Origin: Sedimenticola sp.
GTDB taxonomy: Bacteria; Pseudomonadota; Gammaproteobacteria; Chromatiales; Chromatiaceae
Direction: 5' to 3'
DNA length: 64,000 nt
NCBI GenBank assembly: GCA_027068915.1
Contig: JAMOLT010000009.1
Location: 62,001 to 126,000 of the forward strand
Shown here: positions 11,603-63,805 of the stretch, one piece after another
Layout of the letters: each line of letters begins with the position of its first letter
Position numbering within the stretch: position 1 is the first letter of the stretch
The notes under the pieces: generated by a model
Told to the model about the DNA's origin: nothing
What the model saw: only the letters and a program-made list of their open reading frames with translations
Databases searched by the model: none
Translations under genes and position numbers: made by a program

Positions 11603-11629
11603 ATGTCGGTCGAGGGAGGGAAAACTTTA
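11603..11629 (-). promoter_or_regulatory. Sigma28 (FliA) promoter for pomAB-pilZ
   Basis: Minus-strand TAAAGTTT-N11-ACCGACAT fits the FliA consensus TAAAGTTT-N11-GCCGATAA, with two mismatches in the -10 element. Confidence 0.7.
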
Positions 11630-13285: not shown

Positions 13286-13345
13286 GGGTGTCTATCGCTT
13301 TGGAAATAGTCGTCATTCTTTTGTAAGGTGTTGGTCTGACTATTT

Positions 13346-13372
13346 TTATCGGCGTGAATTGTAATAACTTTA
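13346..13372 (-). promoter_or_regulatory. Sigma28 (FliA) promoter for the diguanylate cyclase
   Basis: Minus-strand TAAAGTTA-N11-GCCGATAA matches the FliA consensus at all but one position, about 60 bases upstream of the GGDEF gene. Confidence 0.82.
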
Positions 13373-13967: not shown

Positions 13968-14288
13968 TTAATCTTTGGGCTTGAGAGCCATATCAAATTC
14001 CATCATGCGCTCCGCAATGTGTGTTGGATCAACAGAGTAGGTGCCATCCATGATGGCCTGCTTTACCTGTTCTACCCGTTTGGTATCCACCACGGGCTGA
14101 TTTTCTACGGCAACGCCGATTTGTCCCAGGCGAATTGCTGTTTCAGACAGGCTGACGGTATCACTGACGGACGATTTTCCTGTAGATTGCTGGGCGCTTG
14201 CAGACTCGCTTGCTGATCCCTTGATCTGGGAGGAATCTCCGGATCTGGGAGCTTGTGCATTGCTTAGTCCATTGATATCAATAGGCAT
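13968..14288 (-). CDS. flgM: FlgM, anti-sigma28 factor
   Basis: Small secreted anti-sigma factor of 106 residues. It holds FliA inactive until the hook is finished, then is exported. The N-terminal half is low-complexity and serine-rich, as in disordered FlgM proteins, with the opening MPIDINGLS. The C-terminal half carries the FliA-binding helices (VEQVKQAIMDGTYSVDPTHIAERMMEFD). A sigma28 promoter upstream gives the usual autoregulatory loop. Confidence 0.93.
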   Translation of the reverse strand: MPIDINGLSNAQAPRSGDSSQIKGSASESASAQQSTGKSSVSDTVSLSETAIRLGQIGVAVENQPVVDTKRVEQVKQAIMDGTYSVDPTHIAERMMEFDMALKPKD

Positions 14289-14331: not shown

Positions 14332-14358
14332 ACATCGGCGGGTGAAAAAAAAACTTAA
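14332..14358 (-). promoter_or_regulatory. Sigma28 (FliA) promoter for flgMN
   Basis: Minus-strand TTAAGTTT-N11-GCCGATGT, at the standard spacing, about 45 bases before the flgM start. Confidence 0.8.
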
Positions 14359-15190: not shown

Positions 15191-15590
15191 ATGCCGGTCG
15201 AACAATTGGCGCTGCTATATATCTTTCTTCAGAAATTATAGTAACCTATTGGTAATAAAGGGTGTTTTCTTTTCGTCACACCACACTGGATGCTGTTTTT
15301 TATGAATGCCTTGTCCTGGAAAAGCACGGGGATTTTGGCCGGAGGCGGTTTTTTGACAGCCTTTGCAAATATGGATGTATAAACAAAGTACCCGTAAATT
15401 TCCCGCAGAAGCATAGGGTTAGCAAGGGTTTCATAGGGTATCGGGCGTGAGAAACAGGTTTTTTGTTTCATCAAGACCTCCTATATGAGCTGCCGATTCC
15501 TCTGCCGGGAAGCGGCAATCTATTGCCGTTGCTGCGACTGGAAAAACACACAAATACAGTAACTCATTGATTATTAGCGGTAAATGCAAA
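15191..15590. other. Divergent flgA-flgB intergenic region
   Basis: No credible gene. It should hold the FleQ/FleR enhancer sites for the divergent sigma54 promoters. The perfect palindrome CGGCAATCTATTGCCG lies at 15513-15528; the same 16 bases also occur inside fliK at 51236. Confidence 0.5.
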
Positions 15591-15607
15591 TTGGCACGAT
15601 TATCGCA
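15591..15607 (+). promoter_or_regulatory. Sigma54 promoter for flgB operon
   Basis: TTGGCACGATTATCGCA fits TGGCAC-N5-TTGCA with one mismatch and GG-N10-GC spacing. It precedes the flgB start by about 37 bases. Confidence 0.82.
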
Positions 15608-15643
15608 TTATTTTCCAGCAAAATATTTAAGTTGGAGAAAAAC

Positions 15644-16039
15644 ATGCCGCTATCGTTCGATTCTGCTCTGGGTATTCATGCCAAGGCACTCGACGTGCGT
15701 GCAAAACGCACTGAATTGCTTGCATCCAACATTGCCAATTCTGATACCCCCGGTTTCAAGGCCAGGGATATAGATTTTCGGTCAGCACTCTCCAATGCGA
15801 GCAGCCAGTCAAAAACTGGGTTGCAGCAAACCAATGCCAGGCACCTGTCAGCTTCCGGGGGTTCTACGAGCTTCACTACTCTTTATCGTGTGCCCAACCA
15901 CTCTTCTCTGGATGGAAATACGGTGGATGCGCAACTGGAAAAAGCTGCATTTTCTGAAAATGCCTTGCGCTATCAGGCCAGTCTGACATTTCTGGATCGA
16001 AAGTTTAAAGGGCTGGTTGGAGCCCTGAAAGGAGAATAA
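15644..16039 (+). CDS. flgB: FlgB, proximal rod protein
   Basis: Exported rod component of 131 residues joining the MS ring/FliE to the rest of the rod. It has the shared N-terminal rod/hook motif LLASNIANSDTPGFKARDIDF and a C-terminal helix for coiled-coil packing (ALRYQASLTFLDRKFKGLVGALKGE). I start at ATG 15644, with GGAG six bases upstream; the track start at 15584 lies before the sigma54 element. First gene of the flgBCDE run; two bases separate it from flgC. Confidence 0.95.
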   Translation: MPLSFDSALGIHAKALDVRAKRTELLASNIANSDTPGFKARDIDFRSALSNASSQSKTGLQQTNARHLSASGGSTSFTTLYRVPNHSSLDGNTVDAQLEKAAFSENALRYQASLTFLDRKFKGLVGALKGE

Positions 16040-34735: not shown

Positions 34736-35977
34736 ATGCCTGTGACAAATTCGCCAACTGCGCAGCAACTTGAGAATGCCTTCGAGGCTTTCAATCAGGT
34801 TGGCTCACAATTGGCCAGCTCCTATGGTGATTTGCAACAGCGAATGATCACCCTGACTGAAGAGCTGTCCCAGGCCCGGACAGAGAAAATCCGGCAGCTG
34901 GTGGAAAAAGAACGGCTCGCGGCACGGCTGGAAAAACTGCTCCAGGCACTGCCTGGCGGCGTATTGGTGCTCGATGAACAGGGCATGATTCTGGAAGCCA
35001 ATCCCGGGGCGCATCAACTGCTTGGTGAGCGCCTGCTTCAGCGCTCCTGGGATGAGGTTGCCGCTTCCGTGTTTGTTTCCGGCAGCCGGGAACTGCAGCT
35101 GCGGGATGGCCGCTGGGTAAGTCTCTCAACCAGCTCCCTGGATGGTGATGAAGGAAAAATCTTGCTGCTTACTGACGTGAGCGAAGCCCGCCGCCTTCAG
35201 GAGCTTTTGAACCAGCATCGGCGCCTTACGGTTTTGGGTGAAATGGCCGCCGGCCTGGCGCACCAGATTCGCACCCCCCTGGCCTCGGTGATGCTGTATC
35301 TCTCTCAACTGGACAACACCACACTGGATGGCGTAAAGCGCCAGCAGTTCATCGCCAAAACACGGGAGCGATTGCTCCATATGGAGCAGATGATCAACAA
35401 CATGCTGGCCTATGCCAGAGGAGAGTCAAGGGAGCACAAACACTTTCTGTTGGCATCGGTCATCGATTCCATGCTGCAGGTGGTGGAGGATAACCTGCAA
35501 GCAGCAGGAGGCCATTTGCAGGTCATTAACCAGGCGCCTGAAATTCTGATCAGGGGGAACCCTGATGCGCTGTTGGGCGCCCTGACCAACCTGGCCATGA
35601 ATGCCATCCAGGCATGTGAGAAAAAGCCGGAATTGTTGCTGAAAGTGGAGCAGGCAGGACAGGGAAGTACAGTTATTTCCCTGCAGGACAACGGTGCAGG
35701 TATCAGCAACTCACTACAGAAAAAAATATTTGAGCCGTTTTTTACCACTCGCACCAGTGGCACGGGCCTGGGACTGGCGGTGGTAAAAGCCGTGGTACAG
35801 AGGCACGGAGGAGAGTTGAGCATGCAATCTTCACCGGGCAAGGGAACCACAGTCAGAATCAGTTTGCCGGCAGCAAATGGAAACCATGCCCTCCCTGCAC
35901 ATATGAATCTGCATCCAGGCAACCCGGTACACATCAATGACAGTTGCCATGCTGAAGGAAAAGAGGTGAACAAATGA
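34736..35977 (+). CDS. fleS: FleS, flagellar sensor histidine kinase
   Basis: Cytoplasmic kinase of 413 residues that phosphorylates FleR. A coiled-coil N-terminus is followed by a PAS domain (LPGGVLVLDEQGMILEANPGAHQLLG, about 65-140), the HisKA box LGEMAAGLAHQIRTPLASVML with the phospho-histidine, and an ATPase domain with N, G1 and G2 boxes (NLAMNAIQACE, LQDNGAGIS, GTGLGLAVVKAVVQRHGG). No membrane helix, so its signal is cytoplasmic. It overlaps fleR by four bases. Confidence 0.94.
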   Translation: MPVTNSPTAQQLENAFEAFNQVGSQLASSYGDLQQRMITLTEELSQARTEKIRQLVEKERLAARLEKLLQALPGGVLVLDEQGMILEANPGAHQLLGERLLQRSWDEVAASVFVSGSRELQLRDGRWVSLSTSSLDGDEGKILLLTDVSEARRLQELLNQHRRLTVLGEMAAGLAHQIRTPLASVMLYLSQLDNTTLDGVKRQQFIAKTRERLLHMEQMINNMLAYARGESREHKHFLLASVIDSMLQVVEDNLQAAGGHLQVINQAPEILIRGNPDALLGALTNLAMNAIQACEKKPELLLKVEQAGQGSTVISLQDNGAGISNSLQKKIFEPFFTTRTSGTGLGLAVVKAVVQRHGGELSMQSSPGKGTTVRISLPAANGNHALPAHMNLHPGNPVHINDSCHAEGKEVNK

Positions 35978-37329
35978 AACAGAAAGCAATCTTGATCGTT
36001 GAAGATGACGGCCCTTTGAGGGACGCTTTACATGACACACTCAGCATTGCCGGGCATCAGGTACTGTCCGCAAGCGATGGAGAAAAGGCGCTGCAGAAAC
36101 TGCAGAAGCATTCGGAAATCAGCCTGGTTATTACAGATGTGCAGATGCAACCCATGGATGGCTATACCTTGTTGAGCACCCTGAAAGTAAAGTATCCCGA
36201 GTTGCCCGTGGTATTGATGACCGCCTATGGCACTATTGACAAAGCAGTAGGCGCCATGCGCGACGGTGCAGTGGATTTTCTGGTCAAACCTTTTGAAGCC
36301 GATGTATTGCTGAAAATGGCCGAGCGCTTCCTGGTTCCGGTGGAAGAGCAGGGCGATGGTGATATGGTGGCCGCTGATCCGGTGAGCAAAGAGCTGGCGC
36401 GCCTGGCGCAACGGGTGGCCAGTGCCGGTGCAACGGTAATGATTGCCGGGGAATCAGGCGTCGGTAAGGAAGTGCTGGCGCGCTATATCCACAATCATTC
36501 CGATCGTGCCAAAAAACCGTTTATCGCCATCAACTGTGCTGCCATTCCCGAGAACATGCTTGAAGCCGTGCTGTTCGGCTATGAGAAAGGCGCGTTTACC
36601 GGCGCCCACCAGGCGCGACCGGGAAAATTCGAGCAGGCCCAGGGAGGCACCCTGCTGCTGGATGAAATCACTGAAATGGATATTGGGCTGCAGTCAAAAC
36701 TGTTGCGGGTACTGCAGGAGCGAGAAGTGGAACGCCTGGGTGGGCGCCGCATGATTGATCTGGATGTGCGGGTGCTGGCTACCAGCAACCGTGATTTGCG
36801 TCAGGCTGTGAGTGAAGGGGCGTTTCGTGAGGATCTCTACTACCGTCTGAATGTTTTCCCCCTGGAACTGCCCCCGCTGCGCAACAGGCGGGAAGATATT
36901 TTGCCGCTGGCAAGAAGGTTCATTTGCCGGCACGTACATGGCAAAGCCTTGCCGGAATTGTGCCATGACGCCATGACCAGACTGCACCAGTATTCCTGGC
37001 CCGGCAATGTTCGGGAGCTGGAAAACGTCATTCAGCGCGCACTGATTCTCAAAAGTGGTGACCAGATTACCGCCCATGATATTCATTTTGAAACCATTAC
37101 CGGGACGCAAATGCCCGAGCCGGTGCAGGCAGCTGACAAAACATTGAACCTGGTTCAGGAAGACCGGCTCAATGATGAGCTGAAACAACGTGAGGCCGAT
37201 CTTATTCTGACGGCGCTGGAGTCTAGCGGCAGCCGTACCGAAGTGGCGCAGAAACTTGGGATAAGCCCTCGCACCCTGCGTTACAAGCTGGCCAAGCTTC
37301 GTGATGCAGGGATCCCCCTGCCGGCATAA
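35974..37329 (+). CDS. fleR: FleR, sigma54-dependent response regulator
   Basis: NtrC-type activator of 451 residues for class III flagellar genes. Its receiver domain carries the acceptor aspartate in LVITDVQMQPMDGY. The AAA+ domain has GESGVGKE, the GAFTGA loop (YEKGAFTGAH), and GGTLLLDEITEM. The C-terminal Fis-like helix-turn-helix reads RTEVAQKLGISPRTLRYKLAKL. ATGA overlap with fleS indicates coupling. Likely targets here are the sigma54 promoters of flgB, fliE, fliD, fliK or fliL. Confidence 0.95.
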   Translation: MKQKAILIVEDDGPLRDALHDTLSIAGHQVLSASDGEKALQKLQKHSEISLVITDVQMQPMDGYTLLSTLKVKYPELPVVLMTAYGTIDKAVGAMRDGAVDFLVKPFEADVLLKMAERFLVPVEEQGDGDMVAADPVSKELARLAQRVASAGATVMIAGESGVGKEVLARYIHNHSDRAKKPFIAINCAAIPENMLEAVLFGYEKGAFTGAHQARPGKFEQAQGGTLLLDEITEMDIGLQSKLLRVLQEREVERLGGRRMIDLDVRVLATSNRDLRQAVSEGAFREDLYYRLNVFPLELPPLRNRREDILPLARRFICRHVHGKALPELCHDAMTRLHQYSWPGNVRELENVIQRALILKSGDQITAHDIHFETITGTQMPEPVQAADKTLNLVQEDRLNDELKQREADLILTALESSGSRTEVAQKLGISPRTLRYKLAKLRDAGIPLPA

Positions 37330-41136: not shown

Positions 41137-42530
41137 GCCAACCAGCAGCCCAAATTCCGCAGTTGCCACGTAGCCCACTATGGCTGCGGCGCCTGAATAA
41201 ATATGAAAAACGTGCTGCCCACGCTCGGCCACTGGTAGTGGAAGGGCGGGTCACCCGAGTTGTCGGTCTTACCATAGAAGCAGTCGGCATTCATGCGCCC
41301 GTGGGTGCAAGGTGCATGATTCACACGCCGAATGATGTAGTGGAATCTGAAGTGGTTGGCTTTGCCGAGGATCGCACCTTCCTCATGCCGATCGGCGATA
41401 GCCGCGGGCTGATGCCCAATGCGCGGGTAATTCCTGCCGAAGATGCCTGTGATGCCTTGGTGGGTGATCACCTGCTGGGCCGGGTTATTGACGCTACAGG
41501 CAAGCCTCTGGACGGGAAAGGGAGAATTCAGTACAGCGCACGCAAGCCGCTTCTGGGAAAAAGCATCAATCCACTTTCACGGTGCCCCATCGATACGCCC
41601 CTGGATGTGGGGGTTTGTGCGATCAACTCTATGTTGACCGTAGGACGGGGACAGCGTATCGGCCTGTTTGCCGGCAGTGGTGTGGGCAAGAGCATGCTGT
41701 TGGGCATGATGACCAAATACACCAATGCTGATGTTGTGGTGGTAGGGCTTATCGGTGAACGGGGCAGGGAGGTAAAGGAGTTTGTGGAGAACATCCTTGG
41801 TACTGTCGGTCGCCAACGGGCAGTGGTGGTTGCCAGTCCTGCGGACAACCCGCCCCTGCTGCGCATGCATGGTGCCTGGCTCTCTACAGCGATTGCAGAG
41901 TATTACCGTGATCAGGGCAAACATGTGCTGCTGCTGATGGATTCACTTACCCGTTTCGCCCAGGCACAACGGGAGATCGCCCTGGCGATTGGGGAACCAC
42001 CCGCCACCAAGGGTTATCCGCCTTCCGTATTTGCACGCCTGCCACAATTGGTAGAGCGTGCCGGAAACGGCGGGGAAGGAGGCGGTTCCATCAGTGCTTT
42101 CTATACCGTACTGGCAGAAGGTGATGACCAGAATGATCCGGTGGTGGATTCTGCACGCGCCATTCTTGACGGGCATGTCGTATTGTCGCGGGAAATTGCC
42201 GAAAGCGGACATTATCCTGCCATCGATGTAGAAGCGTCCGTCAGCCGCGTCATGAACGATATAGTGTCTGAAGAACACTTGCTGGCGGCACGGCGTTTTC
42301 GCCAGATCTATTCCACCTACCACAAAAATCAGGATCTGATCAGTGTGGGGGCATACAAGGAAGGCAGCGACCCGAGAGTGGATGAGGCAATTCGTTACTA
42401 CCCACAGCTTACACAATTTTTACAGCAGGACAAACAGACCGCTGTGAGTCTTAATCAGAGCGTAGGCAGCTTGCTGGATCTCACTGGAATTGAACGAACA
42501 GCGGAAGAACCCGCAGAAGGCTCAGCATGA
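41133..42530 (+). CDS. fliI: FliI, flagellar export ATPase
   Basis: ATPase of 465 residues energising type III export, related to F1-beta. Walker A is [17 protein letters not shown], Walker B is [21 protein letters not shown], and [24 protein letters not shown] is the conserved type III ATPase block. Normal length. Four-base overlaps with both neighbours. Confidence 0.96.
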
Positions 42531-42976
42531 CTCGTAGCAAACCATTGGTTACAGTAGCTAAAATTGCCACGGATCGTGAGCGTGATGCGGCACGGGAAAT
42601 GAGCCATAGCCGCGGAGAGATGGATGTTCATGCGGAGCGGCTCGAAGAACTCGACAACTACCGGCAGCAGTATCTGCAGCAATTTCAGGCCGCCAGCAAG
42701 CGAGGGCTGGGGGTTGTACAGATGCAGGAATACCAGATATTTCTGGGGCGGCTTGATGAGGCGATAAATCAGCAGCAGAAACTGCTGGAGGCCAGCCAGT
42801 CAGCCCACGAAGAAAGACAGAAGCTATGGCTGAACCTGCGAGGGAAGGTAAAGGCACTGGACAAGATTATTCATCAACGGCAGCAGCAGCAAATTGCAGA
42901 GCAGAGCCGTCGTGAACAAGGTGAGTCTGATGACCAGTCCTGCAGCCTTGTCCACTGGAAAACACTATCCTATTAA
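42527..42976 (+). CDS. fliJ: FliJ, export ATPase stalk protein
   Basis: Coiled-coil protein of 149 residues, the gamma-like stalk of the FliI ring. It is charged and predicted helical throughout, with [45 protein letters not shown] as the family core. Last gene of fliEFGHIJ. FliK normally follows closely; here a repeat and a minus-strand signalling operon intervene. Confidence 0.93.
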
Positions 42977-43128: not shown

Positions 43129-46100
43129 TCAGGATGTTTTCTCTGAAGCAACCGACAGATGGGAAACCTTTGGGTTGCTATCCGCAGGCAGGAAACAGGT
43201 TCTGGCCAGTGCCGGGATATTCTCCGGGAGAACGGGCCGGCTGAACAGAAAGCCCTGCACCATGTCACAGGAAACATCCCTGAGCACCTTCAATTGCTCT
43301 TCTTCTTCCACGCCTTCTGCCACTACTACATGCCCAAGAGCATGAGCGATATCCACAATGGTTCCCAGCAAAATTGAGGCGCTCTCATCTTTCAATATAT
43401 CAGAAATGAAAATGCGATCGATCTTGAGGCAATCAATAGGCAGTGATTTCAGTGAGGACAGGGAGGAATAGCCTGTTCCAAAATCATCCATGCTGATCCT
43501 TACACCCAGTTCACGAAGCTGCTCGAAGATACTGAAATCATCCCCGGTGGTCTGCACCACATTCTCGGTAATTTCCAGCTCAAGGTTGGTCGGTGACAGG
43601 CCAGTCTGCTGCAATACATCTTTAACTGTAGTGAGCAGAGCGGGGTCATTGAAGTGCAATGGCGAAATATTTACCGCGATGCGGAAGTCCGGCAGGCCAA
43701 GCATTCTCCACTTGGCAGCCTGATTGCAGGCGGTTTTCAGCACCCAGTTTCCCAATGGCTTTATCATGCCGATGCGCTCAGCCACCTCGATAAACCGGAA
43801 TGGAGGGATCAGTCCCTGCTCCGGATGTTGCCAACGGATCAAGGCTTCTACTCCAACCATTTTGCCATTTTCCAGGTCTATTTGGGGCTGGTAATGCAGC
43901 TCCAGCTGTTCGCGGTCGATGGCGAGACGCAAATCCTGCTCCATTTGCAGGCGCTGATCCGCCTCGATGGTATGCCTTTTCTGGTAGAAGGCGTAACGAT
44001 GTTTGCCCTCTTTTTTTGCCGCATACATGGCGCTGTCTGCCGCTTTGAGCAAGGATTGGAAGTCATCTCCATCCTGGGGGAAGTGGGCAATTCCTATGCT
44101 GCAGCGAGGCCGCAGCTCCCTGGTCAGCAGCTGTAGAGGGCGGTTTATCTCCCGCAGGCTGCGGTTGGCAACCTCTGCGGCATCGCGGTGATCGGAAATG
44201 TTGTCCACGAGGATACAGAATTCATCTCCACTCAATCGGGCGATAAAATCAGTTTCCCGTAATATGCCCTGCAGTCGCTGGGCAACGATCTTCAACAGTT
44301 CGTCACCCGTGTCATGTCCCAGGCTGTCATTGATATCCTTGAAGCCATCGAGATCCAGATAGAGCAGGGCGAATTGCTCCTCGCGTCGCTGGGCGGCCCG
44401 GATGACGTCTTCCACATGCTTGTAAAAATATGCACGGCTTGCCAGGCCGGTCAGTTCGTCTGAATAGGCCAGCTGGCGGATTCGCCTTTCTGTTGCCCGT
44501 TGCCGGGTGATATCCTGCACCGTTCCCAGTATTACGTGATTGGCGTATGGGGCTATGCCCAGCTCCTGGTGTACGATAATCACGGGGCGGCCACCGACAA
44601 CAAGCCGGTAATCAATCGGTCTCAGTGGCGCACCATCTGCAGTGGCGGTAATTGTGTTTCGCAGGTACTCCCTGTCCTTGGGATGTGTCCAGTTGAGGTA
44701 GTCATCCAACGACAAGTTGTGTATATCCGGATCCACACCCAGCATTGCAGCCAGGTTTTCAGAAAGAGTCAGCTGATCTTTGGTTGAGTCCCAGCGCCAG
44801 TACCCCAGGCCGGCTATACGTTGTGCGCTGATGAGTCTTTCCTGGTTTTCCTGCAAGGCTTTGGCATTCCGGCTAGCACGCAGTTGAAAGCGAATACGCT
44901 GCAGCAGGATGGGATAGTTTACCGGTTTCAAGACGAATCCAGATGCGCCGGATTCAAAGGCAAGATCCACTGAACCGGTATCTTCCAGGCCGGTAACCAT
45001 CAATATGGGCGTATCCTGCAAGCCAGGCAGCCGCAGCAAGCGACGGCAGGCTTCAAAACCATCCATGCTTTCCATCATTGCATCCAATAGCAGCAGGTCT
45101 GGCTTGTGCCTGGCTGACAGGGTAATGGCATCCTTGCCATTGTCGGCTTCAATAACCTGATACCCGGCAGAAACCAGCACCTCTTTTGTCGCCATGCGAA
45201 AGCCATGGTCATCGTCCACAAGCAAGATCAGCTCTTTGGCTGCGGATTCTTCAGTTGCAGATTCTGTGGTTAACTGTGGGGTGGTTTCAGTGACAACCAG
45301 GGTTTTTGTATCCGCCTTGAGCTCAAGCTTCAATGCGTCCAGTGCATGATCCAGGGCCGCTTCTATTGCATCGATGAGCTTTGCTGCTTTCTGTAGTTCT
45401 TTCCTGCCTGCGGTTTCTTCCAGCGCTTTGCAGCGATTGGAAAGCTCCACAGCTCCCAGGTTGGCGCTAGCGGATTTCATGCTATGGGCGAGAAATTGCA
45501 GTTGTTCTGCATCCTGCTTTTCCAGGGCTTTGCGCATTTTTTCCATGCCCTCTGGCGCCTGATGCAGAAAATGATCAACCACCTTCATCAGTACGTTACG
45601 GCCTGTTTTATGGCTAAGGTACCGTAGCTGCTGCAATACTTCCGGGTTGAGCAGGTTGCCTGATTGCGCCGGGCCGTGTGCAGCAGGATCGGCTGATGGT
45701 GAGGGCTGGGGTTCAAGGAGCCACTGGCGCAACAAGGCTGCGAGCTGCTGCTGCTTGAAGGGTTTGCTTTGGTAACTGTTCATGCCGGCAGCCAGGCAAC
45801 GCTCCTTGACTCCTTTTTGCACATCGGCAGTAAGCGCTATGATGGGTATGGGTTTGCGGTCTTGTGCTTGTTCCATCTGACGAATTTTGCCTGTGGCGTC
45901 AAAACCATCCATTTTTGGCATGTGGCAATCCATTAATATCAAGTCATATTCTGTCTTGGTAAAGGCCTGCACGGCTTCTTCCCCGTTTTCGGCAAGATCA
46001 ACTTTGCAGCCCAGGGCAATCAGCATGCTGGTAGCCACCTCTTGGTTGACCTTGTTGTCCTCGGCCAGCAGAATCCTGCCCTGTATTTTTGGCAGCTTGG

Positions 46101-48093
46101 TTGTGTCGGTGGAATGCAGCACTGTTTTCTTATCCATTATCTCGCACAGGCATTCCAGCAATTGCTGTTGGCGCACCGGCTTTTGCAAGTAGCAGGCAAT
46201 GCCTGAGTCTCTCATGGTGATAGAGTCGAGGTCGACATCTGCAGAGCTGAGCGCCACCATGCACGGAGTAGGTATGCTTTCGTCCTGCTGAATGTGGTGG
46301 GCCAGCTCCAGCCCATCCATTCCCGGCACATGCCAATCCAGCAGCACGAGCTGATAGGGATCATTTGCAGATGCTGCCTGTTGCAGCCGCTCCAATGCCT
46401 CTGCACCGGAAGCTGCGCTGCCGCTGCGCATGTCCCATGCGATGACTTGATTGTGCAGAATCTCCCGGTTTACCGGATGGTCATCCACGACCAGAACTCG
46501 TGTGCCCCGCAGGATATCCGTCTGAATAGACCGTGGTTCTTTCGCTTCAGCATTGGCCAGAGAAATGGTGAAACGGAAATGTGCGCCTTCTCCGGGAGAG
46601 CTTTCAAGCTTCAGTTTTCCGCCCATGAGAGTTACCAGACGCTTGGCGATGGCCAAACCGAGCCCGGTGCCTCCATGACGCCTGGTGGTGGAGCCATCGG
46701 CCTGACTGAATGCCTCAAAAATTCGTTCCTGTTGCTCTGCAGCGATGCCGGGACCGGTATCAGATACCTCAAACGATATTTGCTGTTTGCCATTTTTCAG
46801 CATGGTTGTTCTTACCCAGAGTTTCACCTCTCCACGTTCGGTAAACTTGATGGCATTGCCTAGCAGGTTAATCAGTACCTGACGTAGCCTTACGGCATCC
46901 CCGCTGACTCTGGCGGGCAGGCTTGGCGGTAAATTGGGCACCAGTTCCAGCCCCTTGCGGTGTGCCTGCCCGGCCATCATTTCCAGGGTATCTTCCAGCA
47001 TGTTGCGTAAATCGAAGTCATCATTGTTGAGCTGGAGCTTGTCTGCTTCTATCTTGGAGAAATCGAGAATGTCATTGATAACCCCCATCAGGCTCTCTGC
47101 CGACCTGTGGGCAATATCCGCAAGGCGGCGTGTGTGCACGTCCAGGCCGCTGTCCAGCAGCAGCTCTGTCATGCCCATGACCCCGTTCATCGGGGTGCGG
47201 ATTTCATGGCTCATGGTGGCGAGAAACTCGCTTTTCGCCCGGCTGGCAGCTTCTGCAACTTCTCTGGCGTTTTCCGCAGATTCCTTGGCTTGCTGCAGAT
47301 CCCGGGTTCGTTCGCCCACTTTCTGTTGCAGCTCTTCCTGGTAGGAGGCCAGTTTGCTTTCCCGCTCTTCCAGTTGCTCCAGCATGTAGTTGAAGTTATT
47401 GATGATGGTGCCTATTTCATCATTGTCTCCAGGCTCCAGGCGTAGCCGGAAATCCTGATTGTCGGAAACCTGCTGCATACCTTCCACCAGTTTCCGGATT
47501 GGTGTGGAAATACGCTGGTGAAGCCGGCTGGCAAGAAGATATACACCACCCATGATGAGCAGCCAGAGAATGGAGATGATGAGGAGATATTCCTTTATGC
47601 GCTGGTACAGCAAGCTCAGGTCAAACTGGATGTGAATGTACCCGAGATGGTCACCTTTGAGGAAGATGGGCTTGAAAGTGTCGACGTGATCGAACTCGAT
47701 GCGATTCTGTGCGACGGTGGCTTTCTTCCGGAGTAAATGGGCCAGCCATGCCTGGCTTTCCTGGTCAATGGCAAGTGTAGCGGGTTTATTTCGATGATAA
47801 TGTGCAAATATGGACCCATCAGGAAGATACAGGGTGGCTGTTTCTACAGAAGCTTCCGATTGCAGGGAGTCAAGCAGCTGTTCTGCAATTCTGTTGTCGT
47901 TGAAGCTAAGGGCAGCAGATGAGTTGGTGGCGATAAAGTCAGCCAACACCTCGGATTTCTCCACCAGGTTTTGCCTATAATTGATGAATTCAAGAGCCAG
48001 GAAGGCAATTGATGCAACCAGCAGGGCAATGCCGCAGGTCAGGAGAATCATGCGCCTGAGCTTGTGAGCAATGATCAGGTTCTTGGCGTTCAT
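43129..48093 (-). CDS. Membrane hybrid histidine kinase with phosphorelay, GGDEF and EAL
   Basis: Giant inner-membrane signalling protein, 1654 residues. In order: helix 1 (about 13-35); a periplasmic CHASE8-like domain (ATNSSAALSFNDNRIAEQLL) as in YfiN; helix 2 (about 166-186) and HAMP; HisKA with H296 (MSHEIRTPMNG); ATPase domain; receivers with D586, D722 and D1004; an HPt with H870 (AHSMKSASANLG) between receivers 2 and 3; a PAS domain (about 1110-1210); GGDEF with SGDEF at 1288; and EAL with the intact VEALIRW at 1415 and DDFGTGYSSL. The intact EAL suggests phosphodiesterase output; SGDEF may still be active or only bind GTP. It overlaps yfiR by four bases. Last gene of the TonB-receptor operon. 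Confidence 0.9.
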   Translation of the reverse strand: MNAKNLIIAHKLRRMILLTCGIALLVASIAFLALEFINYRQNLVEKSEVLADFIATNSSAALSFNDNRIAEQLLDSLQSEASVETATLYLPDGSIFAHYHRNKPATLAIDQESQAWLAHLLRKKATVAQNRIEFDHVDTFKPIFLKGDHLGYIHIQFDLSLLYQRIKEYLLIISILWLLIMGGVYLLASRLHQRISTPIRKLVEGMQQVSDNQDFRLRLEPGDNDEIGTIINNFNYMLEQLEERESKLASYQEELQQKVGERTRDLQQAKESAENAREVAEAASRAKSEFLATMSHEIRTPMNGVMGMTELLLDSGLDVHTRRLADIAHRSAESLMGVINDILDFSKIEADKLQLNNDDFDLRNMLEDTLEMMAGQAHRKGLELVPNLPPSLPARVSGDAVRLRQVLINLLGNAIKFTERGEVKLWVRTTMLKNGKQQISFEVSDTGPGIAAEQQERIFEAFSQADGSTTRRHGGTGLGLAIAKRLVTLMGGKLKLESSPGEGAHFRFTISLANAEAKEPRSIQTDILRGTRVLVVDDHPVNREILHNQVIAWDMRSGSAASGAEALERLQQAASANDPYQLVLLDWHVPGMDGLELAHHIQQDESIPTPCMVALSSADVDLDSITMRDSGIACYLQKPVRQQQLLECLCEIMDKKTVLHSTDTTKLPKIQGRILLAEDNKVNQEVATSMLIALGCKVDLAENGEEAVQAFTKTEYDLILMDCHMPKMDGFDATGKIRQMEQAQDRKPIPIIALTADVQKGVKERCLAAGMNSYQSKPFKQQQLAALLRQWLLEPQPSPSADPAAHGPAQSGNLLNPEVLQQLRYLSHKTGRNVLMKVVDHFLHQAPEGMEKMRKALEKQDAEQLQFLAHSMKSASANLGAVELSNRCKALEETAGRKELQKAAKLIDAIEAALDHALDALKLELKADTKTLVVTETTPQLTTESATEESAAKELILLVDDDHGFRMATKEVLVSAGYQVIEADNGKDAITLSARHKPDLLLLDAMMESMDGFEACRRLLRLPGLQDTPILMVTGLEDTGSVDLAFESGASGFVLKPVNYPILLQRIRFQLRASRNAKALQENQERLISAQRIAGLGYWRWDSTKDQLTLSENLAAMLGVDPDIHNLSLDDYLNWTHPKDREYLRNTITATADGAPLRPIDYRLVVGGRPVIIVHQELGIAPYANHVILGTVQDITRQRATERRIRQLAYSDELTGLASRAYFYKHVEDVIRAAQRREEQFALLYLDLDGFKDINDSLGHDTGDELLKIVAQRLQGILRETDFIARLSGDEFCILVDNISDHRDAAEVANRSLREINRPLQLLTRELRPRCSIGIAHFPQDGDDFQSLLKAADSAMYAAKKEGKHRYAFYQKRHTIEADQRLQMEQDLRLAIDREQLELHYQPQIDLENGKMVGVEALIRWQHPEQGLIPPFRFIEVAERIGMIKPLGNWVLKTACNQAAKWRMLGLPDFRIAVNISPLHFNDPALLTTVKDVLQQTGLSPTNLELEITENVVQTTGDDFSIFEQLRELGVRISMDDFGTGYSSLSSLKSLPIDCLKIDRIFISDILKDESASILLGTIVDIAHALGHVVVAEGVEEEEQLKVLRDVSCDMVQGFLFSRPVLPENIPALARTCFLPADSNPKVSHLSVASEKTS

Positions 48094-48686
48094 GGCATAT
48101 CCTTGAAATTGTGTACATGGATAACGGTTGCCAGCTCCAGCAACGGAGCGCTGATTTTCAGCCCCGCTGCATGGGCGGCATCCAGGTTTATCTCGAAGCC
48201 GATATGTTTTTGCCCAAGTACCAACCCGATGATGCCGCCATCCTTAGCAAAGTTCCTGGCATCACTGACAGTAAGAATGGGTTGATTTTTAAAAGTATGC
48301 AGAATCGATTTCATGAATGCTGCCTTTGAGTCACTGACGAACAGCAGCTGGCAACTGCTTTCAACACTGGTGGAATAGCTGTAGTGGCGAATGGCAATGG
48401 CTATGCCATTGACCTTGCGTTCCTCCAGTACATTGAGGTTACTGCCAAAATCATCCCTGCCAAGAACGCAGATATTGAAGCTTTCCGGCGTGGCGCTTTC
48501 TGTGGCTGGCGGCCATTCGACAAAACGGGTCAGCTTGTATAGCAACGCCACCTTGATCTTGTATTCTGACAGCAATGGTTCTGTGGCATTGGCATGCAGA
48601 TGAGCGGCAAACAATACCAGCAAGAGATAGCCAAACCATTTTGCCCGGGTTGGCCTGATCGTGAGAATTTCAATCAGAAATCCCAA
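48090..48686 (-). CDS. yfiR: YfiR-family periplasmic protein
   Basis: Periplasmic protein of about 198 residues of the YfiR/DUF4154 family. P. aeruginosa YfiR binds and represses the cyclase YfiN. After a signal region (YLLLVLFAAHLHANA) the family pattern is clear: EYKIKVALLYKLTRFVEWP, FNICVLGRDDFG, CQLLFVSDS, ILTVSDARNFAKDGGIIGLVL and KHIGFEINLDAAHAAGLKISAPLLELATVI. The track start is TTG at 48686, without a good ribosome site and overlapping the receptor gene by 13 bases, so coupling or another non-ATG start is likely. It overlaps the kinase gene by ATGA. Probable partner of the kinase CHASE8 domain. Confidence 0.88.
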   Translation of the reverse strand: MGFLIEILTIRPTRAKWFGYLLLVLFAAHLHANATEPLLSEYKIKVALLYKLTRFVEWPPATESATPESFNICVLGRDDFGSNLNVLEERKVNGIAIAIRHYSYSTSVESSCQLLFVSDSKAAFMKSILHTFKNQPILTVSDARNFAKDGGIIGLVLGQKHIGFEINLDAAHAAGLKISAPLLELATVIHVHNFKDMP

Positions 48687-50725
48687 CGGATTTTACCGTA
48701 GACTGAACGCTCAACTTCAGTGACCGAGAACAAGCTCTCTCCCACAAACTCCCGGTGATGACTGTCCAACAGGTTGTGCGCAACCAGGGAGAGTTCCAGG
48801 TTTTTTACCGGATGCCAGGCAATCATGGCATTCAGGCTGATGTAGCTGGGTACGGGCATCTTTATGGAATAACTGGTCTGCTCCAAGTCATGCACATAAT
48901 AGACCCAGAAATCTACGGCCACCTGGTTGCTCAAGTCCATCATGGAGCGTATGGATAGCTGGTGTTTTGGGCTTGAGGTTTCGCTGATGTTGGTTTCGTC
49001 ATTTGAAAAGCTGGCATCGCCGGTCAAAGAACTGGAAACGTCGATAAAGCTGTAGTTTGACTGGAGACGCCACCATTCCAGCGGTCTCCAGTCTATGGCC
49101 AATTCCAGGCCATAACTATGGGCGGCGATGGTATTGTTGAATATCACATTGGATAGTGGATCTTGTGTACGGGTTTTTTCAAAAGCCTGCAAGTTGTCAT
49201 ATTTGTTATAGAAAACTGCAAGATCCAGGGAGAGATTCTCTTTTGGCTGTACCCGGTACCCGATTTCATATGCCAGGAGCTCTTCGGACTGGAAGTCCTT
49301 CGCACCTACGCTGTAGACGGTTTTCGGTGCATACGTTGGGGGCAGGGGGGTGATCATTGCCACAATACGTGATTCGCGTTCAAGGCGGGAGGGGGTTCTC
49401 AGCGCTTTGGAGATTGCCCCCCACAGGGTGCTGCGCTGGTTGGGCATCCAGGCAATGCGGATACTGGGTTGAATTTCGAAGCCCGTGAAATCATTGTGCT
49501 CAAATTTTGATCCCAGGGTCAAAAGCAGGGTATCCGGTGCCAGTGCTATTTCGTCCTGTATGAAAGCGCTGTACAGATTCAATCTGCGGCTGTCCGGCAG
49601 AAAACTAACCGCAAAGGTATTGTCAAAGTTGTCCCGAATGTGCCGGTACCCCAGCCCCCAAACGATTTCATGTCCTGTAATCCCATGATATTGATGCTGA
49701 AAATCAATATCCACAGTATCATGTGTTTGGGTCAGAATTCCTTCTGAACGGTAGGTATGGTCAACATAGAGCTGCAGGGTAGCGCTGCTGGATTCAGACA
49801 ATTGGTGGCTCCGCCTGCCCAATAGATTCCAGCCCGATGATTCGATACTGTCCTGTACGTTGGCAGCCAGATAAAACGGTGCATAGCCCGCATTGGCGGG
49901 ATCTTCAGGGTCTTTCCATAAATTGAGCGTCTGGTTTTCATCCGCTTTGTAAATATCCCCTTGTAGGGTCCAGCTGTCGGTTTGAGTAGTCTGAACATCG
50001 ACACGGAAACCGCCACGCAGGCTTTGCCAGCTATCTCCGTTGTTTTTCCCCTGGGTATAGGAGCTGTCCCTGTCGTTGTATTTCAGGTAGGCGCGTGCGG
50101 CAACACCATGTTTGGTTTTGATACCGTAGCGAATACTGCCAAAGGCTTTTTCCTCGTTTCCGGCACCGACTGTCAGCAGGCCGCCCTGTGTTTGGTTCGC
50201 CTGTTTGGTGATGATGTTGATCACGCCATTAACTGCATTGGCGCCCCATGCCGTAGCTCCTGGCCCGCGGATGACCTCTATGCGCTCAATGTCTTCCAGC
50301 AAGGTATCCTGGGCATCCCAGTAAACCCCTGAAAATGCGGGATTGTATACTGTTCTCCCATCAACCATCACCAACAGCTTGTTGGCAAACTGATTGGCGA
50401 AACCCCGACTGCTGATTGCCCATTTGTTGGCATCAATGCGCCCGACCTGGATTCCGGGCGCCATGCGCAACGCTTCCGGGATGCTTGTTACGCCGGAGCG
50501 CAGAATGTCATCATGGGTGATGACGAATATTGCAGCAGCGGCCTCGTTGAGTGGCTGTTTCTTCTTGGAAACCAGGGTTACTTCCATTGAAAGCAAATCT
50601 TCCAGGGGCATATCCATATAGTCTTCAGCCAAGCCATGGGCCTGGGCTGAAGATGCCAGCAATAGAAGAGGCGCCGCCAGGCCCGCAAGGGGGCGGCGAT
50701 AGCCTTTGTGAAGAGTTTTTACCAT
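48674..50725 (-). CDS. TonB-dependent outer-membrane receptor, signalling type
   Basis: Outer-membrane 22-strand barrel with plug, 683 residues. Signal peptide: RPLAGLAAPLLLLASSAQA. The mature N-terminus MDMPLEDLLSMEVTLVSKKKQPL leads into the plug (AAAAIFVITHDDILRSG, then IPEALRMAPGIQVGRID, RGFANQFANKLLVMVDGRTVY and ERIEVIRGPGATAWGANAVNGVINIITK). The C-terminus is KIRWDF, ending in phenylalanine as barrels do. ATG 50725 has GGGA upstream and lies just after the sigma28-like promoter, which rules out the track's 50809 start. Ligand unknown. First gene of an operon with yfiR and the hybrid kinase, so sensing is more likely than plain uptake. Confidence 0.9.
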   Translation of the reverse strand: MVKTLHKGYRRPLAGLAAPLLLLASSAQAHGLAEDYMDMPLEDLLSMEVTLVSKKKQPLNEAAAAIFVITHDDILRSGVTSIPEALRMAPGIQVGRIDANKWAISSRGFANQFANKLLVMVDGRTVYNPAFSGVYWDAQDTLLEDIERIEVIRGPGATAWGANAVNGVINIITKQANQTQGGLLTVGAGNEEKAFGSIRYGIKTKHGVAARAYLKYNDRDSSYTQGKNNGDSWQSLRGGFRVDVQTTQTDSWTLQGDIYKADENQTLNLWKDPEDPANAGYAPFYLAANVQDSIESSGWNLLGRRSHQLSESSSATLQLYVDHTYRSEGILTQTHDTVDIDFQHQYHGITGHEIVWGLGYRHIRDNFDNTFAVSFLPDSRRLNLYSAFIQDEIALAPDTLLLTLGSKFEHNDFTGFEIQPSIRIAWMPNQRSTLWGAISKALRTPSRLERESRIVAMITPLPPTYAPKTVYSVGAKDFQSEELLAYEIGYRVQPKENLSLDLAVFYNKYDNLQAFEKTRTQDPLSNVIFNNTIAAHSYGLELAIDWRPLEWWRLQSNYSFIDVSSSLTGDASFSNDETNISETSSPKHQLSIRSMMDLSNQVAVDFWVYYVHDLEQTSYSIKMPVPSYISLNAMIAWHPVKNLELSLVAHNLLDSHHREFVGESLFSVTEVERSVYGKIRWDF

Positions 50726-50766
50726 GTCTATTCCCATTTGCATCATCCAATCATGCTCATTTATGG

Positions 50767-50794
50767 TATCGGCCAGAGCGGGAACTAACTTAAG
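50767..50794 (-). promoter_or_regulatory. Sigma28-like promoter for the TonB-receptor/yfiR/kinase operon
   Basis: Minus-strand TTAAGTTA-N12-GCCGATAC matches both FliA elements, with one extra spacer base compared with the other seven sites. The expected start is about 35 bases before the receptor ATG. Confidence 0.6.
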
Positions 50795-50956
50795 GGGGCC
50801 TTGAATCAAACCTGTTTATGCAGGTATGGGCCTGGTTTGGCTGTCCCTGCACCAGATTACTTGCCATAACACGTCAAAATAGTGAGCTTTTCCCGTATTT
50901 GTTATAAATAAAGCATATTTCGTGCCACAGCGTGTCACCGGTTGAATCGATAAAAA

Positions 50957-50974
50957 TTGGCATCGATGTTGCTT
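50957..50974 (+). promoter_or_regulatory. Sigma54 promoter for fliK
   Basis: TTGGCATCGATGTTGCTT fits the -24/-12 consensus with GG-N10-GC spacing, about 40 bases before fliK. Confidence 0.82.
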
Positions 50975-51014
50975 GCATCTTTGGCAAAGACCGTTAATCG
51001 TGCCGGAGTAAGGA

Positions 51015-52892
51015 ATGCAGAACCCGTTTTTCAGCCTGAGCTTGCCTTTGATGCCTGATGCCGAGTTGCGTCAATCCACCGGGATGCCAGGTGGCCTTGC
51101 CCCCTTGCCCAATCAGGGAAAAGTCGGTGAAAGTGGTCGGAATTCCGGCTTTTCAGGAAGCCTGCAGCAGGCGATTTCTGCCGCTACTGAAGAGCCACCA
51201 GCCAGGCCAGGCGGAGATTCCGGGCTGCCGGCAAACGGCAATCTATTGCCGGATCTGCCGGTGGAGGCAGCCACCCCCCAGTTGGGGGAGGTCGAAGACA
51301 GTCCGATATTACGCGAAGAGGATGGACAAGCGCTGGTGGGTGGGAACGTGCTGCTTCCGCAGGACGCGGATGCCCCGCCTGCCATGTTGATGCCTGGCTT
51401 GTTAATGCAGTCTTCCTCTGGCGAGCAGTCCGACTTTCCGGTGCAGGAGTTGCCGGTGTCTTTCAGTGGCAGTTCTCCGGGCCGGGAGCAATTGCCAAGA
51501 CCTGTAATGACCACTGCTGCTACTGAAGAAAATATCCTTGCCCGGCAATTATCTCCCGTTACAAACAACAGTAATTCCTTCACTTCGGAACTGCGGCTTC
51601 AGCATGCTTTGCATCTTCCGGCAGCTGATGCTTCCCGGCCTGTGGCGATCAAGGTAGACGGCATGGCGGAATTATCCCTTCCGGTATTGCCTGCTACAAA
51701 TCGAAATGGTGTTGCTCCGACACTGGCGCGTGGGGATGTTCCTGAACTCCCGAAAACTGCTGCTCCTTTGTCTGTGGCGATCAAGGCAGATGGTATGGTG
51801 GAATCACCCCTTCCTGCATCACCAGCCAACCAGCGAAATGATGTTGCTTCGGTGCCGGCAGACCAGCGTGTTGCTGATTCCCTGAAAACCGTTACCCCTC
51901 AGCCCACGACAACCAGAATGGAAGGAATGACGAAAGAGGCTTCCAGTGGAGGATCTCCTGCGGCACTGGCAGAGAAATCTGGCGTTGTTGCAGCTTCAGA
52001 ATCCGTACGCCAGAACCCTGTTGCCATGGAAAACATTCTTCGCACACAAGCAGCAACAACCAAACCGGCTGGTATGTCTGCAGCAGCATTGGCCGGCGTG
52101 GCGGCAGAAAACCACGATATAGTGGCTTCAGAACTGCCGCGCCAACCAATTGCAGGCCTGCAAAATCTTAAAAATCAACAGCCTTTGGAGTCGAAGACAG
52201 AAAGGCAGACCGGCATCACCAGGGAAAGGGTAATTTCCCCCGCAGCTTTTCAGAATCTGATGGAGGCACATCGGCAGCCGCTCCAGGCCATGCCTGCTGG
52301 TGGAGCGTCTTTTTCGATTGAGCAGATGGCTGCTGCCCGTTCAGAAACCCATGCCCCCCCGCCTCCCATACAGGCATCTTTGAATCTTGCAGGCAACTCC
52401 GCACCACCAATTCCGCTGAGCACCCCAGCATCATTACCAGCCGCTGTGCCGCAGAGCATTTCTGTGCCTGTAGGCCATGCCGCCTGGGAACAGAGTATGG
52501 CCAGGCAAGTGCTGCAGGCCGGACAAAACCAGTTACAAACGCTGGAAATCCGGCTTAATCCGGCAAATCTGGGGGCATTGAATGTGCATATTTCCCTGGA
52601 AGCTGATGCTGCCAGCATTGTATTTTCCAGCCACCATGCAGTGGTTCGTGAGGCTGTGGAAGGGGCAATTCCCCGCTTGCGGGAAATGTTCAACAGCAGT
52701 GGCATCAGTCTTGGGGATGTCAATGTCGCAAACCAAAGTGCGGCAGAACAGCAGGGGCGGCAACCTTCCCGACAGTACCATGCCGGGCAAGTCACAGGTA
52801 CAGGCGCTGCCAGGCAGTCAGAGCCAGCTTCGGATGGTATCCGGGAAATGCCCAAAAAATCTTCGGAGCAACTGCTGGACTACTATATCTGA
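51015..52892 (+). CDS. fliK: FliK, hook-length control protein
   Basis: Secreted molecular ruler of 625 residues that switches export from hook to filament proteins. The first 450 residues are low-complexity, rich in P, A and S, and contain degenerate 44-residue repeats. The C-terminal Flg_hook domain is clear: LQTLEIRLNPANLGALNVHISLEADAASIVFSSHHAVVREAVEGAIPRLREMFNSSGISLGDVNV. Longer than enteric FliK (about 400) but within the range of polar flagellates. Own sigma54 promoter. Divergent from the TonB-receptor operon. Confidence 0.93.
   Translation: MQNPFFSLSLPLMPDAELRQSTGMPGGLAPLPNQGKVGESGRNSGFSGSLQQAISAATEEPPARPGGDSGLPANGNLLPDLPVEAATPQLGEVEDSPILREEDGQALVGGNVLLPQDADAPPAMLMPGLLMQSSSGEQSDFPVQELPVSFSGSSPGREQLPRPVMTTAATEENILARQLSPVTNNSNSFTSELRLQHALHLPAADASRPVAIKVDGMAELSLPVLPATNRNGVAPTLARGDVPELPKTAAPLSVAIKADGMVESPLPASPANQRNDVASVPADQRVADSLKTVTPQPTTTRMEGMTKEASSGGSPAALAEKSGVVAASESVRQNPVAMENILRTQAATTKPAGMSAAALAGVAAENHDIVASELPRQPIAGLQNLKNQQPLESKTERQTGITRERVISPAAFQNLMEAHRQPLQAMPAGGASFSIEQMAAARSETHAPPPPIQASLNLAGNSAPPIPLSTPASLPAAVPQSISVPVGHAAWEQSMARQVLQAGQNQLQTLEIRLNPANLGALNVHISLEADAASIVFSSHHAVVREAVEGAIPRLREMFNSSGISLGDVNVANQSAAEQQGRQPSRQYHAGQVTGTGAARQSEPASDGIREMPKKSSEQLLDYYI
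51641..52090 (+). repeat. Degenerate 132-bp tandem repeats within fliK
   Basis: TGTGGCGATCAAGG begins units at 51641 and 51773, exactly 132 bases (44 codons) apart. Related units start near 51905 and 52037-52057. The protein repeat is roughly VAIKxDGM...LP..P, then a variable half. Confidence 0.6.
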
Positions 52893-62179: not shown

Positions 62180-63071
62180 AACCAGCCTGCAACGGAATAC
62201 CAACCAGGATCAGGCAACAGGATTAAGAAGAATAGCCCGCCCCAAACCCGTGAAGGTTATTGCCATTACCGGGGGAAAAGGGGGCGTGGGAAAGACCAAC
62301 GTGGCCGTGAACATGGCGCTTGCCCTGGCGGATGAAGGAAAAAAGGTGATGCTGCTGGATGCGGATTTTGGCCTGGCGAATATTGATGTACAGCTGGGGT
62401 TGAGTCCGGAATATGACCTTTCCCACCTGATCAGTGGTGAAAGAAACCTGGAAGAAATCATCGTTGAGGGGCCCCGGGGAATCAGGATTATCCCCGCCTC
62501 ATCCGGCATTGCCCGCATGGCCAATCTTAGCCAGGCAGAGCATGCCGGCGTTATTCGCGCCTTCAGTGAACTCAGCTACGATGTGGATTATCTCCTGGTG
62601 GATACGGCAGCTGGTATTTCCGATGGGGTGGTGAGCTTCTGCCGCGCCTCCCATGAGGTGATTGTCGTGGTCTGTGATGAACCGGCCTCCATAACAGATG
62701 CCTACGCCCTGATCAAAGTCATGAACCGGGAACATGGTGTGGATCACTTCCATGTTCTGGCAAATATGGCTCACACCGCAAGGGAAGGGCGTGAGCTGTA
62801 CAGCAAACTGGCACTTGCCGCAGATCATTTCCTGGATACAACACTGACCTATCTGGGAGTTGTTCCGCAGGATGAGCGCCTGAGAAAAGCCGTGCAGAAA
62901 CAACGTGCAGTGGTGGATCTGTATCCCGGAAGCCCCTCTGCCACGGCCTTCAAGAAAATCGCCGGCAATGTGGAAAAATGGCCGGGGGCACGCAATGCAA
63001 GTGGTCAGCTTGAGTTTTTTGTCGAACGGCTCATCAACGTCGAACAGGAATTGATTGGAGTTTCACCATGA
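62166..63071 (+). CDS. fleN: FleN/FlhG, MinD-like ATPase controlling flagellar number
   Basis: ParA/MinD ATPase of about 301 residues that limits flagella number and antagonises FleQ in Pseudomonas. The deviant Walker A is ITGGKGGVGKTNVAVNMALAL, followed by LLDADFGLANIDVQLGL and LVDTAAGISDGVVSFCRAS. It lacks the N-terminal QAGxL-type DQA motif region only in part (NQDQATGLRRIA is present). I use ATG 62166 with GGAGG upstream rather than TTG 62148. Overlaps fliA by four bases. Confidence 0.94.
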   Translation: MLTHETSLQRNTNQDQATGLRRIARPKPVKVIAITGGKGGVGKTNVAVNMALALADEGKKVMLLDADFGLANIDVQLGLSPEYDLSHLISGERNLEEIIVEGPRGIRIIPASSGIARMANLSQAEHAGVIRAFSELSYDVDYLLVDTAAGISDGVVSFCRASHEVIVVVCDEPASITDAYALIKVMNREHGVDHFHVLANMAHTAREGRELYSKLALAADHFLDTTLTYLGVVPQDERLRKAVQKQRAVVDLYPGSPSATAFKKIAGNVEKWPGARNASGQLEFFVERLINVEQELIGVSP

Positions 63072-63805
63072 ATATGGCAGCCATTTACCAGGAAGCTTCG
63101 GAACAACTCAGCTATGAGGAAATGGTTGCCAAGCATATGCCTCTGGTCAAGCGTGTGGCATACCACCTGATGGCGCGCATGCCGAACAGCGTGCAGCTGG
63201 ATGATCTGGTTCAGGCGGGCATGGTTGGCTTGCTGGAAGCCATGCAGAACTATGATTCATCCAAAGGAGCCAGTTTTGAAACCTATGCGCGCATCCGCAT
63301 TCGTGGATCCATGATCGATGAAGTGCGCCGCGGTGACTGGACGCCCCGCTCGGTTTACCACAAGGCCAGATTGCTGGCCGAGGCGACGCGTACCGTCGAA
63401 AGCCGCGAGCACCGGGTCGCACGTGATGAAGAAGTTGCCGCAGAACTGGGGCTGGATCTTGCTTCATACAACAAGATCTTGACGGATACCAGCGGCTGCC
63501 ATGTGTTGAGCTACGACGATCTGAGTGCCGACAGCTGGATGTCTGATAGCGAAGATGAATCCAAAACCGGCCCCCTGCCGGAACTGCAGAAAACCCTGTT
63601 CAAGGAAGGACTGTCAGAAGCCATTTCCAATCTGCCGGAACGGGAAAAGATGGTGCTTTCACTATACTATGATGATGAATTCAACCTGCGTGAAATCGGT
63701 GAAGTGCTGGGAGTAAGTGAAGCCAGAATCTGCCAGATTCATGCCCAGGCGCTCACCCGGCTCCGCTCCAGAATGCGCGACTGGGTAGGTGGAGATGATG
63801 ACTAG
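63068..63805 (+). CDS. fliA: FliA, flagellar sigma factor sigma28
   Basis: Alternative sigma factor of 245 residues. Region 2 is VKRVAYHLMARMPNSVQLDDLVQAGMVGLLEAMQNYDSSKGASFETYARIRIRGSMIDEVRRGDW, region 3 follows, and region 4 is LPEREKMVLSLYYDDEFNLREIGEVLGVSEARICQIHAQALTRLRSRM. Its targets in this window are the sigma28 elements listed. The TAG stop overlaps the first bases of a MITE-like element, so the insertion may have set the C-terminus. No cheY or cheZ follows before the window ends. Confidence 0.97.
   Translation: MNMAAIYQEASEQLSYEEMVAKHMPLVKRVAYHLMARMPNSVQLDDLVQAGMVGLLEAMQNYDSSKGASFETYARIRIRGSMIDEVRRGDWTPRSVYHKARLLAEATRTVESREHRVARDEEVAAELGLDLASYNKILTDTSGCHVLSYDDLSADSWMSDSEDESKTGPLPELQKTLFKEGLSEAISNLPEREKMVLSLYYDDEFNLREIGEVLGVSEARICQIHAQALTRLRSRMRDWVGGDDD

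Follow-up and report, generated by a model that had tools for sequence, protein, structure and literature searches.

Control of single c-di-GMP enzymes by the flagellar sigma factor sigma28 (FliA) is already known. FliA-dependent c-di-GMP genes include yhjH (pdeH) and ycgR in E. coli (PMC4183435) and bifA in Pseudomonas putida (PMC5300878). The E. coli sigma28 consensus has a spacer of 11 bases, N11 (PMC2859248), and two E. coli operons, fliAZY and fliLMNOPQR, carry both FlhDC-class and FliA promoters (PMC4183435). YfiBNR is a known system of Pseudomonas aeruginosa (PMC2837407, PMC4655355). With partial coverage of the literature, we found no paper on a FliA-controlled operon of receptor, YfiR and hybrid kinase, nor was a link between DUF4154/YfiR and TonB receptors found.

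In DNA of a marine bacterium we analysed a candidate operon of this kind, located in the window, by which we mean the whole 64-kb stretch of DNA under study. It encodes, in order, a TonB-dependent receptor, YfiR and a hybrid kinase that has CHASE8, GGDEF and EAL domains, and it sits in the flagellar gene cluster between fliJ and fliK (the fliJ-fliK slot), divergent from fliK. The features of the slot are as follows.

42527-42976, plus strand: fliJ, flank of the slot (PF02050)
43129-48093, minus strand: hybrid kinase of 1654 aa, CHASE8-HAMP-HisKA-HATPase-REC-REC-Hpt-REC-GGDEF-EAL (Pfam)
48090-48686, minus strand: YfiR/HmsC-like periplasmic protein, DUF4154 (PF13689, E 2.5e-42)
48674-50725, minus strand: TonB-dependent receptor of 683 aa, ATG at 50725 (Pfam Plug and TonB_dep_Rec_b-barrel)
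50766-50793, minus strand: candidate sigma28 (FliA)-type promoter (sequence, matrix score, kept in the closest relative)
50912-50928, minus strand: candidate sigma54-type promoter GTGGCACGAAATATGCT, directed towards the receptor gene (agrees with the consensus at 11 of 13 scored positions)
50957-50973, plus strand: divergent sigma54-type promoter of fliK, TTGGCATCGATGTTGCT (present in relatives)
51015-52892, plus strand: fliK, flank of the slot (PF02120)

A preliminary description of this DNA had listed the operon as a TonB receptor and a hybrid kinase; both are there, but it missed the YfiR gene between them and the GGDEF-EAL end of the kinase. Three things support the receptor start at ATG 50725: it has a ribosome site (GGGAATAGACATG), the protein then begins like a signal peptide, and the match to the protein of the closest relative (L006) runs from residue 1. 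A longer reading frame, beginning at TTG 50809, would span the promoter and was rejected, the evidence favouring the ATG. The start codon of the YfiR-like gene is uncertain, with TTG 48686 as the in-frame candidate.

We compared the operon with the components of YfiBNR. A YfiR-family periplasmic protein is present, assigned by PF13689 and by matches to solved P. aeruginosa YfiR structures (E about 1e-4), and CHASE8, HAMP and GGDEF all occur in the window kinase, with kinase, REC, Hpt and EAL domains added. An OmpA-like outer-membrane lipoprotein YfiB is absent. The outer-membrane gene encodes a TonB-dependent receptor instead, so by its predicted domains the operon is a YfiBNR-like c-di-GMP module rather than YfiBNR itself. 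The kinase has SGDEF as its GGDEF motif, preceded at five residues by an RETD I-site, and intact EAL motifs (EALIRW and DDFGTG); therefore both synthesis and breakdown of c-di-GMP would be possible. The operon probably senses something at the outer membrane and changes the c-di-GMP level.

The predicted sigma28-type site is TTAAGTTA-N12-GCCGATAC (in full, TTAAGTTA-GTTCCCGCTCTG-GCCGATAC), found as an exact string on the minus strand at 50793-50766. Its -10 end lies 40 nt upstream of the receptor ATG, and transcription from it would be expected to start at about 50759. The preliminary description had reported this motif just before the receptor gene, at 50767-50794, with one spacer base more than seven other FliA-like sites of the window. 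The motif is confirmed, the coordinates are one base off, and the spacer is indeed 12 bases against N11 at the other seven. The -35 element fits the sigma28 pattern TNAAGTTT, including T1, A3, A4 and G5, which are invariant across 37 sites of the genus, and the -10 element fits GCCGATAA. The spacer departs from the sigma28 N11. This is unusual because class-III sites in the genus are nearly all N11, N12 occurring in 1 of about 40 orthologous sites. The exception is flgK of genome G001 (L201), with TTAAGTTT-N12-GCCGATAG 139 nt before the gene where relatives have N11; it is a natural second case of a longer spacer. E. coli trg was considered as a proven N12 case and set aside, as ATAAGTAATTACCGTCAAGTGCCGATGA allows an N11 and an N12 reading whose -35 elements are equally poor, and so proves nothing. 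Sigma28 spacer tolerance was thus judged from comparative data, and the N12 sites of G001 flgK and the sister species L006 suggest that N11 is preferred rather than absolute. With a spacer of 12 and N12 known at these two places, we therefore speak of a FliA-type site and not of a proven FliA promoter.

For a weight matrix we took 37 class-III sites with N11 spacers, drawn from flgK, flgM and flagellin genes in the flagellated genomes of the genus, and left out the target. A matrix scan with N11 and N12 spacers had been proposed earlier; it gave the target a score of 23.6 (training-site range 15.1-26.3), which is higher than that of 27 of the 37 training sites and ranks fourth within the window. 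By chance, 9.6 × 10−4 sites with this score are expected per spacer on both strands of 64 kb, and 0.04 per spacer in the whole genome; about 14 million position-spacer tests on other loci gave none scoring as well. Counts for the whole genome were made by pattern search. They place the exact N12 core TNAAGTT-N13-GCCGAT at two sites, the target and the inside of a long ORF, and among 18 N12 cores with at most one mismatch the target alone is both promoter-placed and scores above 20. Exact N11 cores were found at flgM, flgK, a flagellin, the diguanylate cyclase listed below and cheA.

All seven other FliA-like sites named in the preliminary description are present, and all are N11. They are given here with the sigma28 machinery of the window.

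11603-11629, minus strand: FliA-type N11 site of motAB (matrix)
13346-13372, minus strand: FliA-type N11 site before a GGDEF diguanylate cyclase gene at 11681-13285 (score 22.6; Pfam)
14332-14358, minus strand: FliA-type N11 site of flgM (matrix)
22836, plus strand: FliA-type N11 site of flgK (matrix)
27931, 29117 and 30166, plus strand: FliA-type N11 sites of three flagellins (matrix)
13968-14288, minus strand: flgM, anti-sigma28 (PF04316)
63068-63805, plus strand: FliA-like sigma factor, the cognate sigma28 (Sigma70 regions 2, 3 and 4)

Of the 14 other genomes of the genus, 13 have a FliA homologue, 70-99% identical. An eighth matrix match, at 15627 (plus strand), looks spurious and was rejected as a promoter: a sigma54 site precedes it, and it covers part of the flgB start and ribosome site. 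At 15584-15653 (plus strand) the longest flgB reading frame begins too early, the true start lying near 15645, after the sigma54 site at 15591. The diguanylate cyclase with the strong N11 site (11681-13372, minus strand) lies between flgN and motAB, and a PilZ protein (9169-9774) comes after motAB; FliA in the window seems to drive several c-di-GMP parts. Outside the window, a cheA-like gene (L237, G000:C10:30295) has an exact N11 FliA site in front, and this predicted site links chemotaxis to the same regulon.

We examined the fliJ-fliK slot in related genomes. The full operon is also found there in L006/G006 (receptor 93% identical) and L005/G010 (76%); in G005 the slot holds the operon's kinase, within which the contig ends, and in G001 it is empty, with fliJ and fliK as neighbours. 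The site of L006 is TCAAGTTA-N12-GCCGATAC (its -35 also written TNAAGTTA), retained with its N12 spacer despite a 10-base indel ending at the -35. The aligned site of L005, TTAATAAA-N11-GCCGACAA, is poor, its score of 9.9 lying under all training sites; the site block in L005 is conserved as a whole (0 of 2000 shuffles matched). In three further genomes, G004, G007 and G009, the slot is occupied by a shorter REC-Hpt-REC-GGDEF-EAL gene whose identity to the corresponding part of the window kinase is 56-57%; an N11 FliA site faces the gene in all three: TTAAGGAA...GCCGACTA in G004 (score 14.0), TTAAGAAA...GCCGATAG in G007 (18.1) and TTAAGAAC...GCCGATAG in G009 (16.9). Conservation at orthologous or syntenic genes is thereby seen in L006 with N12 and in these three genomes with N11. 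In the tree, their slot genes form the sister group of the window kinase clade (support 93/91). The short slot genes (L290, L293 and L294) either lost the sensor and kinase half or never had it, and full-length homologues occur at other places in these genomes. Where homologous operons lie outside the slot in the genus (G003, G007, G004, G009), they have no good FliA site.

In the alignment of slot promoters, TTAAG and GGCCGA fall in register, with one extra base in the window and L006. The N12 spacer looks like a derived one-base change. On the simplest history, an old FliA-controlled GGDEF-EAL locus occupied the fliJ-fliK slot, and its spacer grew by a single base in the lineage from which L006 and the window species descend, which suggests that flagellar control at this slot is old. 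As relatives carry N11 and N12 at the same place, they offer a natural test of sigma28 tolerance to a spacer one base longer.

The second candidate promoter, at 50928-50912 (minus strand), has GG-N10-GC in a TGGCAC/TTGC context and would give a 5' leader of about 176 nt. It aligns with GTGGCACGGAATATGCA in L006 and ATGGCATGAAATCTGCT in L005, and is thus kept in all three species with the full operon; a sigma54 site facing the slot gene is absent from G004, G007 and G009. The fliK sigma54-type promoter is also found in L006, L005, G001, G004, G007 and G009. It had been proposed that, if the FliA site is active, the operon is switched on only in cells becoming motile. The sequences do not support this strict form, because the operon is also faced by the conserved sigma54-like site further upstream and may thus be expressed from an earlier stage of the flagellar hierarchy. 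The proposal of a FliA promoter on the operon fared better, being well supported by score, position, conservation in L006 and the N11 sites in the slot of three species. The best reading of these sequences is dual sigma54 and sigma28 control, the operon probably having early and late flagellar promoters.

With a probability of about 0.7, we take the target to be a genuine sigma28 promoter, weakened or re-tuned by the extra base, that places a YfiBNR-like c-di-GMP sensor operon under flagellar control. It is unlikely that the operon is driven mainly by the sigma54 promoter with a FleQ/FlrC activator, the sigma28-like site being a decaying or minor relic. The sigma54 match is strong, FleQ- and FlrC-type activators are encoded in the window (7595-9124 and 35974-37329), the neighbours fliK and fliL have sigma54 sites, and the sigma54 site persists in L005 despite the poor FliA site there, so it may be the main promoter. 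Against this, the N12 site stays high-scoring in two species across an adjacent indel, the slot gene of G004, G007 and G009 is faced by a FliA site with no sigma54 site, and about 1.6 equally good sigma54 matches are expected by chance per 64 kb.

We also doubt that FliA holoenzyme binds the target but yields little transcript, N12 being an attenuating mutation that removed the operon from the late regulon. The N11 of the relatives' slot versus the N12 of the window does suggest a derived extra base, and ChIP-seq in E. coli found many FliA-bound sites without a FliA-dependent transcript (PMC4183435); however, the target -35, AAGTTA, is nearer consensus than the relatives' AAGAAA/AAGGAA and could compensate, and the N12 flgK promoter of G001 suggests that such a spacer can work. 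Chance resemblance is very improbable; here another regulator or a weak sigma70 promoter would act and the GCCGAT block would be conserved for other reasons. High-scoring chance sites do exist, as three other N12 matches above 20 occur in the same genome, but all three lie inside ORFs of 235-942 codons, and chance predicts about 4 × 10−6 such sites for 250 nt when two spacers are allowed. The syntenic N11 sites of three relatives and the lack of any sigma70-like site in 50600-51030 argue strongly against it.

In the mechanism that we propose, sigma54 with FleQ/FlrC would give an early flagellar-class transcript of the operon, to which FliA would add a late one once FlgM is exported. The TonB receptor would take the role of YfiB at the outer membrane, and YfiR would pass the signal to CHASE8, so that a ligand at the receptor relieves or imposes the control exerted by YfiR. 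Through its phosphorelay and GGDEF-EAL output, the kinase would then set c-di-GMP in flagellum-bearing cells, a level that may help to decide between swimming and settling.

N11 FliA-type sites also precede the same receptor type in other genera of the Sedimenticolaceae. In six genomes of genus g65 (L209-L212, L215, L217) and record L008, an operon of receptor(s), YfiR and kinase lies directly after flgK-flgL with a conserved N11 site, TAAAGAAA-N11-GCCGATAG (one variant spacer letter). L008 is an Escarpia laminata endosymbiont record, and tubeworm-symbiont relatives carry the flgL-linked operon; L008 and G118 are probably one organism (identical receptors in the tree) and are not to be counted twice. 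The receptor operon of G024 has TCAAGATT-N11-GCCGATGA, and weaker N11 sites precede the same receptor type in G179 and G081. An N13 candidate in L027 lies inside a conserved EAL coding motif and was rejected. The receptor tree places the other-genera receptors with FliA sites and the window receptor in separate clades; the flagellar linkage therefore recurs. We rejected the idea that the window operon was acquired horizontally from the g65 version linked to flgL, as the receptor tree does not join them. Across 65 wider receptor homologues there was no general enrichment of FliA sites, which were limited to some Sedimenticolaceae.

We tentatively suggest, at somewhat less than even odds, that TonB-receptor/YfiR/GGDEF-EAL operons of the Sedimenticolaceae have been put under the flagellar sigma more than once, at fliJ-fliK, after flgL and away from these, and that the receptor is a standard late flagellar product telling swimming cells, including tubeworm-symbiont relatives, when to settle. 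Sigma28 control over a whole outer-membrane-to-cytoplasm sensing operon, recurring across genera, would, if true, give a swimming cell a route to check for an outside ligand and stop.

As with yhjH, ycgR and bifA, sigma28 would here control a c-di-GMP enzyme or effector that does not belong to the core flagellar genes. Those are single enzymes or effectors, whereas the window has an operon for an outer-membrane receptor, a periplasmic YfiR and a hybrid kinase, its FliA-type site has an N12 spacer, and a sigma54-like site is present as well. The operon shares with P. aeruginosa YfiBNR a YfiR homologue adjoining an inner-membrane protein that combines GGDEF output with a CHASE8 domain of the YfiN type; however, the outer-membrane partner is a TonB-dependent receptor where P. 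aeruginosa has the lipoprotein YfiB, and the output protein adds a kinase phosphorelay and an EAL domain. As in fliAZY and fliLMNOPQR, an earlier flagellar-class promoter and a sigma28 promoter are predicted on one operon, whereas the early promoter in the window would belong to the sigma54 type and the operon would encode a sensor, not a flagellar part.
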